This document shows positions 31,508-56,882 of a stretch of DNA of 64,000 bases, piece by piece. Within the stretch, counting starts at the first letter, position 1. Every line of letters begins with the position of its first letter. Under the pieces are notes generated by a model. The model ran no database searches and was not told the DNA's origin. It saw only the letters and a program-made list of their open reading frames with translations. This DNA comes from an uncultured Faecalibacterium sp. (GTDB lineage: Bacteria; Bacillota; Clostridia; Oscillospirales; Ruminococcaceae): positions 1-64,000 of the forward strand of contig CAKSVD010000004.1 in the NCBI GenBank assembly GCA_934503275.1. Direction: 5' to 3'. Made by a program: the position numbers and the translations under genes.

Positions 31508-31611
31508 CGTGACGATTTTTCATGCGCTCCGCTTTGCTCTGCGCATGAATAGCGGAACAATTATGTTTTTTTCGAACTCCCGGAGCGTCTGCGGACGCTC
31601 CGGGAATTCTA
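31508..31611 (+). repeat. Structured intergenic repeat (pseudoknot plus hairpin), copy A
   Basis: About 104 bases homologous to 53630-53735. CATGCGC (31521-31527) pairs with GCGCATG (31541-31547), while TCCGCT (31528-31533) pairs with AGCGGA (31551-31556); these interleave as a pseudoknot. An 11-bp hairpin follows: CCCGGAGCGTC (31579-31589), loop TGCG, GACGCTCCGGG (31594-31604), then a T-rich tail. It lies after the stop of a + gene and before a convergent gene. Confidence 0.75.
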
Positions 31612-31635
31612 TTTTTACATAACAATTTTCACAAA

Positions 31636-53629: not shown

Positions 53630-53735
53630 AACGATTTTCAATGGTCTCCGCTTGCGCTCTGTCCATATTCAGCGGAAAATATATTTTTAATTTCTGGATA
53701 GCGGAGCGTCTGCGGACGCTCCGCTATCCCATTTT
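53630..53735 (+). repeat. Structured intergenic repeat (pseudoknot plus hairpin), copy B
   Basis: Homologous to 31508-31611. ATGG (53641-53644) pairs with CCAT (53663-53666), and TCCGCT (53647-53652) with AGCGGA (53671-53676), again interleaved. A 15-bp hairpin follows, GGATAGCGGAGCGTC (53696-53710) and GACGCTCCGCTATCC (53715-53729), with the same TGCG loop. Arms outside the shared core differ from copy A but remain paired. Confidence 0.75.
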
Positions 53736-53796
53736 CACGAGGGGAATTGCAAAGATATACGGCAGCGCCTACTGCATATTCCTGCGTGAAAACGCA

Positions 53797-53832
53797 AAAT
53801 AAGCCAGACCCGCAGGCCCGGCTTATTTAAAA
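53797..53832 (-). terminator. Terminator after Na/Pi cotransporter gene
   Basis: AATAAGCC and GGCTTATT pair around 53797-53829; the minus-strand tail is TATTTTG. Confidence 0.8.
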
Positions 53833-53844
53833 ACAAAAAATATT

Positions 53845-55623
53845 TTATGCTTCCATTTCTTCCAGCGGCACAAGGTATTCCTTGCGGCACTGCTCGTATT
53901 CCAGCATATAGTCCTTGCTGGGGCTATGGTGCATAATGTTTTTCAGGGTGTGGGAGTCGTAGTCATCGCCGGCCTCCATGCCCACCATGCGCACCGCAAT
54001 GTTGGAGCAGTGGTCGGAGATACGCTCGGCGTTGTTCAGCACATCCAGGAACACCACGCCGGTGTCGATGGAGCAGATGCCGTCCTTCAGGCGGCGGATG
54101 TGCTGGTCGCGCAGGCGCTCCACCATCACATCAATGATCTCCTCCAGCGGCTCCACCTGTGCAGCCTTCTGGGTATCATCGTTTTCAAAGGCCTCGTCCG
54201 TCAGCGCCAGAATGCGCTCCAGTGCGTCATCCAGCAGCTGCAACTCCTTTTGGGCGCTCTCGCTGAAGCTGGCTTCCTTGTCGTGCAGTTCCTCGGCCTT
54301 TTCCATGATATTCACAGCATAGTCGCCGATGCGCTCGAACTCGGTGACAAAGTTCAGCAGTTCGGTCACCGCATGGCTCTCGTCATCGCCCAGTTCCTGA
54401 TCGGTCAGCTTGATCAGGTAGTTGCTGATCTCCACCTCCATGCGGTCGATCAGGTTCTCGCGCACCTTGATGGCGCTCACGGTCTCCTCGTCCATTTTCA
54501 AAAGCAGCGGCGCGGCCAGACCCACGTTGCGGGCGGCGCGGCGGGACATTTTGATCACTGCATTCTTTGCCTGCTGCAAGGCCACAGCCGGGCTCTTGTA
54601 CAGACGCTCGTCCAGCACCGGCATACTCAATTCCTGTGCTTCCTCCACGCTGCTGGGCACTGTGAGCATCGCCAAGCGGCTCAGCACTCCGCTGCAAGGC
54701 AGGAACAGCAGCATGGCACACACGCTGGACATGGTATGGATGTTTGCAATGGAGCTCTTGTTCATCACATCGCCCCACATGGGAATGCCGATGGTGAACT
54801 GCACCGCATAGATCAGCGCCAGCAGGATAACACTGCCGATAACGTTGAAATACAGGTGGATAAGCGCTGCCCGCTTACCATCCTTGGAGGAACCGCCGAT
54901 GGTGAGCAGCGGGGTGAACGCCGTACCGATATGCGCGCCCAGAATGATGGGGATGGCAGAGCTGAAGGTGACAAGTCCCGTGCTGGACAGTGCCTGCAGA
55001 ATACCCACCGAGGCGGAGGAGGACTGGATGATCACGGTGACCACCACGCCCACCAGAACACCCAGAATAGGGTTGGTCATGGTGACGAACAGATTCTGAA
55101 AGACGGCGCTCTCCCGCAGGGGTGCCACACCGGTATCCATCAGGCTCATGCCGGTAAACAGGATACCGAAGCCCAGCATGATCTGGCCGATATTCTTCTT
55201 TTTGGCATTGCGCAGGAACACATAAAAAATGCAGCCAATAAACGCCACCACGGGGGCAAAGGTCTTGGGCTGGATCAGGGTCAGCCACAGGCTGTCGCCT
55301 GAGATATCCGCCATGCGGATCAACTGACCTGTTACCGTAGTACCAATATTTGCACCCATGATCACGCCTACCGACTGCGTCAGTGTCATGATACCGGAGT
55401 TGACCAGACCGACGCAAATAACCACCGTACCAGCCGACGACTGGATGACGCCGGTGATCAGTGTGCCAAAGATCACGCCTTTAATGGTGGAGGAGGTAAG
55501 CTTTTGCAATACGCCCTGCATCTTGCCGCCTGCCAGCTTTTCCAATCCGGCGCCCATGATGGACATGCCGTACAGGAACAGCGCAACGCCGCCCAGCAGA
55601 GAGGTAATGTGTGTGATATCCAT
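53845..55623 (-). CDS. Na+/phosphate cotransporter family protein with PhoU-like domain
   Basis: 592 residues from ATG 55623, with AGGAG upstream. About eight membrane helices carry two inverted QSS repeats (VIQSSAGTVVICVGL and IIQSSSASVGILQAL) and GANIGTTVT/GAHIGTAF blocks, the PNaS family hallmark. The last 230 residues are a soluble helical PhoU-like domain (FVTEFERIGDYAVNIMEKAEEL and NNAERISDHCSNIAVRM). It takes up phosphate, or acts as a sensor-coupled carrier. The gene has its own promoter and terminator. Confidence 0.93.
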   Translation of the reverse strand: MDITHITSLLGGVALFLYGMSIMGAGLEKLAGGKMQGVLQKLTSSTIKGVIFGTLITGVIQSSAGTVVICVGLVNSGIMTLTQSVGVIMGANIGTTVTGQLIRMADISGDSLWLTLIQPKTFAPVVAFIGCIFYVFLRNAKKKNIGQIMLGFGILFTGMSLMDTGVAPLRESAVFQNLFVTMTNPILGVLVGVVVTVIIQSSSASVGILQALSSTGLVTFSSAIPIILGAHIGTAFTPLLTIGGSSKDGKRAALIHLYFNVIGSVILLALIYAVQFTIGIPMWGDVMNKSSIANIHTMSSVCAMLLFLPCSGVLSRLAMLTVPSSVEEAQELSMPVLDERLYKSPAVALQQAKNAVIKMSRRAARNVGLAAPLLLKMDEETVSAIKVRENLIDRMEVEISNYLIKLTDQELGDDESHAVTELLNFVTEFERIGDYAVNIMEKAEELHDKEASFSESAQKELQLLDDALERILALTDEAFENDDTQKAAQVEPLEEIIDVMVERLRDQHIRRLKDGICSIDTGVVFLDVLNNAERISDHCSNIAVRMVGMEAGDDYDSHTLKNIMHHSPSKDYMLEYEQCRKEYLVPLEEMEA

Positions 55624-56003: not shown

Positions 56004-56139
56004 GGTGTTTCCCTCCTGTGTATCTGTTTTGTACCCGGAGCTTCTCCGGTGAACACAGTATCGCACATTAAGGATACTATAAAAAGGACTTTTAAATGTT
56101 TTTGCAGAATTTTTGCGCAAAAATCGGACGATGCTCCCG

Positions 56140-56182
56140 TGAAAAAGCGGCTCAGAAACGCCCACAGGCGTTTCTGAGCCAC
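56140..56182 (-). terminator. Terminator after sortase gene
   Basis: GGCTCAGAAACGCC (56149-56162) pairs with GGCGTTTCTGAGCC (56167-56180), and the minus-strand tail is GCTTTTTC. Confidence 0.9.
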
Positions 56183-56225
56183 AAATTATAATAGTATTTT
56201 CCAAATCGTCCCGCTGCGCAAAGCG

Positions 56226-56882
56226 TTATTCTGCCGCGTCCGTCACACGGACGGGGTAGCCCGTCCGCACACAGCGCACCGCATAGCGGGCGTTGCCGCT
56301 GGAGGTGCAGGTGAACAGGGTCAGATCCCAGCTGTCCGTCTCGGTGGCGGTGGTCATCTCCTCGATCTGGGTGGGGTGCAAAGTCTCCACGCTCTCTACC
56401 TCGTAACTCCAGCGCAGACCGTCCGCATCCGTAAAGTAGGCCGGGCTGCCGATCGCCAGCCACTTGATGGGGCTGAAATGCTTTGCGTAGTTGTGGCCGC
56501 AGAGCACCAGATCATCGGCATAGGTGGTGCCGCTGTACCGCCCGGGAGCGACTTTTAGCCCGGCGTAACTCCACTGCGCCATCACCGGCAGTTCCAGCCC
56601 TGCCGCCGGGATGGAAAGCACCCCGATGTAGTCATGCCCCTCCACCTCTACGGTAGTCATCTCCTGCGCCGGGTCCAGCACCGGCTGCGGGGCTGCGGTC
56701 TCGTTTTCCTGCCGGTGCTCCGTAATGGTCTTTTGCATGGTCTGCTCCAACTCGCCCAATACTTCCTGCGAGACCTTTTCTGCCCGGGCGGCATCCCACC
56801 GATTGTAGCCAAGCAGCCCGGCAGCGCTTAAGACCAGCACCGCACCCAGCACCATGCACAGCCTGCCGATTTTCCGTTTCAT
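56226..56882 (-). CDS. Sortase family cysteine transpeptidase
   Basis: 218 residues. One N-terminal helix (CMVLGAVLVLSAAGLLGY) anchors it with the catalytic part outside. Catalytic residues are visible: H130 in LVLCGHNYAKH, C192 in LTLFTCTSSG and R199 in NARYAVRC. The TLFTC form resembles small class D/B-like sortases. It would link a sorting-signal protein to the wall, but no LPxTG-type substrate is encoded in the window. It stands alone with its own promoter and terminator. Confidence 0.9.
   Translation of the reverse strand: MKRKIGRLCMVLGAVLVLSAAGLLGYNRWDAARAEKVSQEVLGELEQTMQKTITEHRQENETAAPQPVLDPAQEMTTVEVEGHDYIGVLSIPAAGLELPVMAQWSYAGLKVAPGRYSGTTYADDLVLCGHNYAKHFSPIKWLAIGSPAYFTDADGLRWSYEVESVETLHPTQIEEMTTATETDSWDLTLFTCTSSGNARYAVRCVRTGYPVRVTDAAE

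Follow-up and report, generated by a model that had tools for sequence, protein, structure and literature searches.

A clade-restricted intergenic repeat of Faecalibacterium with two hairpins whose arms change together

Copies in the window and anatomy of the repeat

The stretch of DNA analysed here (the window, 64,000 nucleotides from an uncultured Faecalibacterium sp.) carries two full copies of a non-coding repeat and a third, degenerate one (Table 1). The 31.5-kb copy starts 9 nt past the stop codon of a 202-aa ORF that gave a weak YcxB-like match, and it is faced by a convergent mannitol dehydrogenase-like gene; the 53.6-kb copy starts 15 nt past the stop codon of a 127-aa ORF without Pfam match and is faced by a convergent Na/Pi-cotransporter-PhoU gene. 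A first-pass annotation had already placed two copies at these sites, which proved correct. Both share the exact 20-nt hairpin core GGAGCGTCTGCGGACGCTCC, found at two places on the window's + strand, against a chance expectation of 0.02 matches with up to three mismatches. ARAGORN found no tRNA in the window and no Rfam family matched it at the gathering score, nor did any match four copy-bearing loci, where a search at E values up to 5 gave 14 matches, every one far below that score.

Table 1. Features of the repeat in the window. The 136.6 and 116.1 bits of the two full copies are partly circular, since the covariance model was built from a 56-copy alignment that includes both.
Feature	Position	Strand	Remarks
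First full copy	31511..31625	+	116.1 bits
Hairpin of first copy	31574..31609	+	15/16 paired
53.6-kb full copy, head to tail	53630..53746	+	136.6 bits; boundaries from 111-copy profile
Stem 1, 5' side, ATGGTC (53.6-kb copy)	53641..53646	+	
Proposed second pseudoknot stem, 5' side, TCCGCT	53647..53652	+	covariation support absent
Stem 1, 3' side, GTCCAT (53.6-kb copy)	53661..53666	+	
Proposed second pseudoknot stem, 3' side, AGCGGA	53671..53676	+	covariation support absent
16-bp hairpin, TGCG loop (53.6-kb copy)	53695..53730	+	15/16 paired
Conserved tail ATTTTCAC, then G-rich block (53.6-kb copy)	53731..53746	+	
Terminator-like hairpin, CTGCGG tip, TTTTCACG tail	53797..53828	-	tail-to-tail with 53.6-kb copy
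Third, degenerate copy: hairpin, linker, tail	56117..56238	-	stem 1 lost; 51.1 bits, E 1.8e-11

The minus-strand hairpin next to the 53.6-kb copy overlaps a weak match of the covariance model (53795-53846; 16.3 bits, E 0.043) and could be either a remnant copy or a plain terminator.

The conserved part of the repeat is about 118 bp long, non-coding and built around two hairpins, with its parts in the order RACGATTT head, 6-bp stem 1, AGCGGA, AT-rich linker, 16-bp TGCG hairpin and TTTTCACGGGAGGGG tail. Stem 1 could be parsed in 130 of 231 hairpins, and a conservation profile of 111 of these 130 copies starts sharply at RACGATTT, 10-11 nt ahead of stem 1, and ends at TTTTCACGGGAGGGG past the hairpin, from where it fades across about 23 nt. 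The T-run comprises only 4-5 T and conservation extends beyond it. About half of the 111 copies have GACG, the complement of CGTC, 8 nt ahead of stem 1. The hairpin loop is TGCG in 208 of the 231 hairpins, and we take the resulting + strand tip, C(UGCG)G, to be an RNA tetraloop of the UNCG type.

By our hairpin criterion, 134 of 147 head modules are followed by a hairpin within 115 nt and 13 are not, several of them because another repeat sits inside the hairpin. Another repeat, whose own hairpin resembles GAAAGCCCCASTGGGGCTTT, lies within the 16-bp hairpin at L035 (-) 2672, L037 (-) 1257, L059 (-) 2654, L114 (-) 3097, L146 (-) 6168, L163 5865, L176 241 and L204 (-) 2356, with positions counted on the strand named. 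At L006, L009, L025, L050 and L056, the stem 1 loop is replaced by a different repeat of about 130 bp, with remnants of the stem still flanking it. The genomes G004, G023, G042 and G001 have, within this frame, a second class of hairpin whose arms end in CAAACGC and pair imperfectly (e.g. GCGTTTGTCGCGCTC/GAGCGCTCCAAACGC), and repeats of the GGGGGAGCTGTCGCGCAGCGACTGAGGGG and AAGCGAAAAAAGCGTTAAAGCG types adjoin many copies in their downstream flanks (L014, L015, L035, L048, L059, L066 and others). We recognised no autonomous version with an internal gene among the fetched loci.

Distribution, gene context and likeness to known repeats

The repeat is a high-copy, dispersed, intergenic element restricted to one clade of Faecalibacterium. 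A loop-plus-tail pattern matched 55-117 times in each of eight Faecalibacterium genomes and 0-2 times in 23 others, where the reversed control of the pattern also gave 0-2 matches. The covariance model found 79 to at least 104 matches in eight of 31 genomes of the genus (the eight that the pattern singled out; counts of 103-104 are lower bounds), 1-5 in four and none in 19. The 20-nt core, with one loop base left free per side, is present in three of 41 genomes searched, at 30, 16 and 29 places, but the family as a whole comprises many different arms. A scan of a collection with one genome per species returned 100 stretches, and all 80 among the matches listed are labelled Faecalibacterium. 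In a one-gene comparison none of the other genomes comes as close to the window in identity as the eight high-copy ones, and in a tree of this gene (window plus 18 of the 31 genomes) they lie together with the window on one side of a branch with a support of 84/87. Two tail-to-tail copies were also seen on an IMG/VR contig (L210:12363-12665), close to the end of its fetched portion, perhaps in host DNA beside a prophage. Among the open-licence papers listed for repeats and noncoding RNA of this genus, none appeared to describe the repeat.

The copies studied in detail come from loci fetched for matching as opposed to whole genomes, and their gene context was counted with gene calls from our own codon-usage script. 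Only one of 121 full copies lies inside an ORF. A same-strand gene precedes 90 of the 121, and 61 of these 90 start no more than 25 nt past its stop codon, while an opposite-strand gene precedes 28. Between convergent genes we counted 47 full copies, between divergent genes eight. The location past stop codons would suit a structured 3' UTR RNA, the reading of the first-pass annotation, according to which selection acting on the RNA maintains the stems and the paired changes are ordinary compensatory evolution. Of the 56 full copies between co-directional genes, 38 are in sense and 18 antisense (p = 0.01); that these 18 are antisense to both neighbours speaks against this reading.

The repeat could also be nothing but a set of ordinary intrinsic terminators that look alike. 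Indeed, the element lies at the 53.6-kb site in G023 and G001, and in G004 and G043 the same site between the convergent genes holds a plain hairpin terminator in a 50-bp gap, with flanks that match the window at 93-98% identity. Of the tips of 208 other terminator-like hairpins at the loci studied, CTGCGG is likewise the most frequent (at least 22), and the repeat resembles intrinsic terminators in its GC-rich hairpin and T-run past stop codons, a likeness that a terminator scan recognised in one of the two full window copies. In contrast to them, it has a fixed 16-bp stem, a TGCG loop, a conserved upstream hairpin and a conservation that goes on past the T-run of 4-5. Since unrelated sites share a conserved head, stem 1, linker and tail, and since these parts are confined to one group of genomes, we regard mere resemblance among terminators as highly improbable.

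Presence and absence at orthologous sites are not limited to the 53.6-kb site. Among the sites listed, one that is vacant in L177 holds elements in L121 and L194, which differ in their hairpins, and another holds a tail-to-tail pair in L189 but is vacant in L185. At the empty sites listed, neither a clean insertion boundary nor a target-site duplication was recognised. Neighbours within 450 bp of each other are almost always arranged tail-to-tail: of 226 copies, 59 are in tail-to-tail, two in tandem and none in head-to-head arrangement, and 165 are single. Of 58 copies paired in this way, 30 are flanked by convergent and 24 by co-directional genes, so that gene layout alone fails to explain the pairing.

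With the REP/REPIN elements the repeat shares that it is short, palindromic, intergenic and of high copy number and that it often forms inverted pairs, both of which are borne out by the counts above. A rival reading is a REP/REPIN family mobilised by a RAYT (Y1) transposase, in favour of which Y1_Tnp matches occur in six of the eight high-copy genomes. However, such a match is absent from G001 and G046, both high-copy, and the element is present at only one of eight Y1 loci examined out of 17 matches listed. Unlike REP/REPINs, the repeat is longer, has two dissimilar hairpins, arms that vary between copies and a TTTTCAC tail, and it lacks a Y1 (RAYT) gene that accompanies it consistently. Neither GTAG nor CGTC marks the foot of its palindrome; in the 111 copies the linker precedes the 16-bp hairpin and ATTTTCAC follows it. 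Mobilisation by a RAYT was rejected, as Y1 transposases do not track the repeat across the high-copy genomes, and we consider it quite unlikely. The one copy near a Y1 gene is L214:2089-2228 in G023, which follows the Y1 transposase match at a distance of about 230 bp on the downstream side; the other seven loci have none.

BOX elements of pneumococcus are modular intergenic repeats with a stem-loop; the likeness of our repeat to them is one of description only, and they belong to another genus. CGTC-tagged REPs are described as high-copy palindromes without a dedicated transposase, with stems of 8-9 bp, loops of 4-5 nt and mostly head-to-head dimers (PMC3733652). The Faecalibacterium repeat differs from these by its 16-bp main stem, its tail-to-tail pairs and the GACG ahead of stem 1 in place of a CGTC at the foot.

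Pairing of the stems and how they change

We take the pairing itself to be real. In an alignment of 56 of 67 first-filter copies, 97.2% of the stem cells are paired, a figure that leans towards intact stems, since 11 copies with an altered stem 1 or an atypical hairpin were excluded. Changes on both sides were found in 17 of 27 pairs, namely in four of six pairs of stem 1, in 13 of 16 of the hairpin and in none of the five of a proposed second pseudoknot stem. The covariation score of 0.387 lies far above the shuffled mean of 0.114 and was reached by none of 500 shuffles, although relatedness can beat such shuffles; with the stems slid it was at most 0.087. Unprompted, RNAalifold recovers stem 1 and the hairpin and adds two pairs inside the stem 1 loop that draw on two alignment columns assigned to the proposed second pseudoknot stem. 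That stem 1 and the hairpin pair and covary, as previously claimed, is thus upheld.

The claim of a second pseudoknot stem formed by TCCGCT and AGCGGA is not borne out by covariation. Both sequences are indeed identical in the two window copies, which for that very reason neither support nor oppose the stem, and in the 56 copies two of its five pairs are invariant and the other three are broken in 13, 10 and seven copies. Of the two interleaved stems of an H-type pseudoknot, only stem 1 covaries. As a covariation-supported stem the second one was rejected, but it may form as a contact: the fold predicted for the 53.6-kb copy, which has a weakened stem 1, contains TCCGCT/AGCGGA as a plain helix.

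For the two window copies, the first-pass annotation had described changes on both sides of stem 1 and of the outer hairpin arms with pairing kept each time. The two-sided changes are there, the complete pairing is not. Stem 1 of the 53.6-kb copy is paired at five of its six positions, the fifth position being a T.T mismatch (T53645 opposite T53662); at the same locus G023 and G001 have an intact stem 1, ATGGCC/GGCCAT. The outer arms, given before as CCC/GGG changing to GGATAGC/GCTATCC, are longer than CCC/GGG in the 31.5-kb copy (GAACTCCC/GGGAATTC, with one C.A), and there as well as in the 53.6-kb copy (TGGATAGC/GCTATCCC, T.C outermost) seven of eight positions are paired.

What these two-sided changes mean is a different question. 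The view that they reflect a structured RNA is favoured by the strong covariation of two stems, by the C(UGCG)G tip on the + strand together with the constancy of the TGCG loop, and by the stable predicted fold (z of -4.6 and -8.6). However, the minus strand folds about equally well (z of -5.3 and -8.2), so that stability names no functional strand, for which the UNCG-type tip gives a hint only. Furthermore, conserved sequence runs on past the T-run, and the mode of change points in another direction.

Stem 1 is one of only four alleles in 119 of 130 copies (CGC 54, GCC 29, CCC 23, GCT 13), and its pair counts therefore rest on few events. In 36 pairs of orthologous copies, which share members and are thus non-independent (upstream flanks 71-98% identical), two-sided changes outnumber one-sided ones by 98 to 12 in the hairpin and by 32 to 2 in stem 1. 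The T.T of the window copy, compared with two orthologues, accounts for two of these 32, in which the pair is broken, and the 12 one-sided changes include changes at both window loci. A two-sided hairpin change was seen in 18 of the 36 pairs, only one-sided changes in seven. At orthologous sites with almost unchanged upstream flanks, whole hairpins or whole stem 1 loops are swapped and the neighbouring parts stay: the hairpin differs with the same stem 1 in L037/L171 (seven pairs) and L064/L141 (nine pairs), and stem 1 differs with the same hairpin in L065/L090 and L011/L063. Such replacement of blocks argues against ordinary compensatory evolution.

A search with two hairpins, two mismatches allowed, returned four exact copies, the same four read on the opposite strand, and 13 non-identical near matches on the element strand. 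In each of the 13 the difference affects both bases of a single pair, and none differs at one base alone; as several share one sequence, the independent events number fewer than 13. Among 126 distinct hairpins (207 copies, 153 of them perfectly paired), 16 pairs of hairpins are one base apart, and two-base differences fall within one base pair in 40 cases and elsewhere in 10. Of these 40 same-pair changes 23 are transversions, which cannot pass through G.U, and in full copies G.U is no commoner than A.C (10 and 15 of 1968 cells); both findings count against selection on an RNA. Copies without head contain 38 G.U and 23 A.C in 1728 cells and 159 other terminator-like hairpins 98 and 58 in 1704, three sets that were selected by different rules. 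On the points raised against it, we regard a structured 3' UTR RNA maintained by selection as rather unlikely.

If hairpins are swapped, a donor might be found. The arm of the swapped hairpin at L127 in G023 occurs six times in that genome, but for two further swapped hairpins, one each in G043 and G004, no exact second copy was found in their own genome, so that simple copying from a present donor explains some swaps only. The 90 pattern matches in G023 contain 64 different 3' arms, 51 of them single.

Symmetric change is also found outside the repeat, where it is less exclusive. Ordinary terminator-like hairpins served as a control and showed 108 two-sided and 77 one-sided changes in 89 orthologue pairs of the same geometry, with 33 pairs having a two-sided change and 40 one-sided changes only; many of these rows repeat one hairpin in several registers, and a different geometry made 804 of the 963 orthologue-like pairs unsuitable for comparison site by site. 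The symmetric change in these hairpins hints at a general DNA process as much as at the repeat itself. In L156/L191 and L129/L132 the tips of ordinary terminator-like hairpins are exactly inverted between genomes, and nearly so in L027/L056, with upstream flanks 98% identical.

The step from two-sided change to selection on structure, which the first-pass annotation had taken, is consequently unsupported: the alleles are few, blocks are replaced, one-sided changes are scarce and G.U does not exceed A.C. The two-sided pattern does not decide for selection, because block exchange or arm-to-arm copying of DNA would produce it too. In addition, a strong selection for a perfect hairpin may be at work, and the data do not fully separate it from DNA exchange.

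A repeat placed behind genes and probably exchanged in DNA

On balance, we think it probable that the element is a repeat with a REP- or BOX-like behaviour which is exchanged in DNA, may end transcripts and was spread by a machinery acting in trans. It would have settled behind genes in one group of Faecalibacterium. At the DNA level, its palindromes would stay symmetric and be exchanged as whole units, through either recombination among the copies or template switching at hairpins, with the result that both arms change together. The renewal of the pairing thus probably takes place in DNA, through block exchange or template switching. For REPs, gene conversion was reportedly raised by Higgins and others in 1988. 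Compensatory changes are also reported for REPIN hairpins (PMC3116915).

At the RNA level, the 16-bp hairpin, capped by C(UGCG)G and followed by the T-run, would end the upstream transcript or protect its 3' end. A consensus terminator scan called the + strand hairpin at 31.6 kb a terminator and did not call the one at 53.7 kb; judged by sequence features, the hairpins of the element may help to end transcripts.

Against this account we count the one-sided changes, the two-sided stem 1 changes that break the pair, the excess of G.U over A.C in copies without head, which resembles that of ordinary terminators, the lack of an exact donor for two swapped hairpins, the short T-run and the absence of a clean insertion boundary at the empty sites listed.

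A more far-reaching idea, which we put forward as tentative, is that an active, clade-wide DNA process (block exchange or hairpin-templated repair) rewrites both arms of hairpins together. If this were true, the 16-bp TGCG geometry would stay fixed while the arm sequences are renewed almost freely across dozens of copies, and covariation tests would report a strong 'RNA structure' made by a DNA mechanism. The orthologue pairs make the question testable, since pointwise compensation and arm copying predict different intermediates.

If the interpretation as an exchanged repeat is correct, a genus of gut commensals gains an abundant repeat family, at positions from which it could set the 3' ends of many transcripts. 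It would also be a natural case in which strong covariation stems, at least in part, from the exchange of palindromes as blocks, and hence a caution for the discovery of RNAs that relies on covariation alone.
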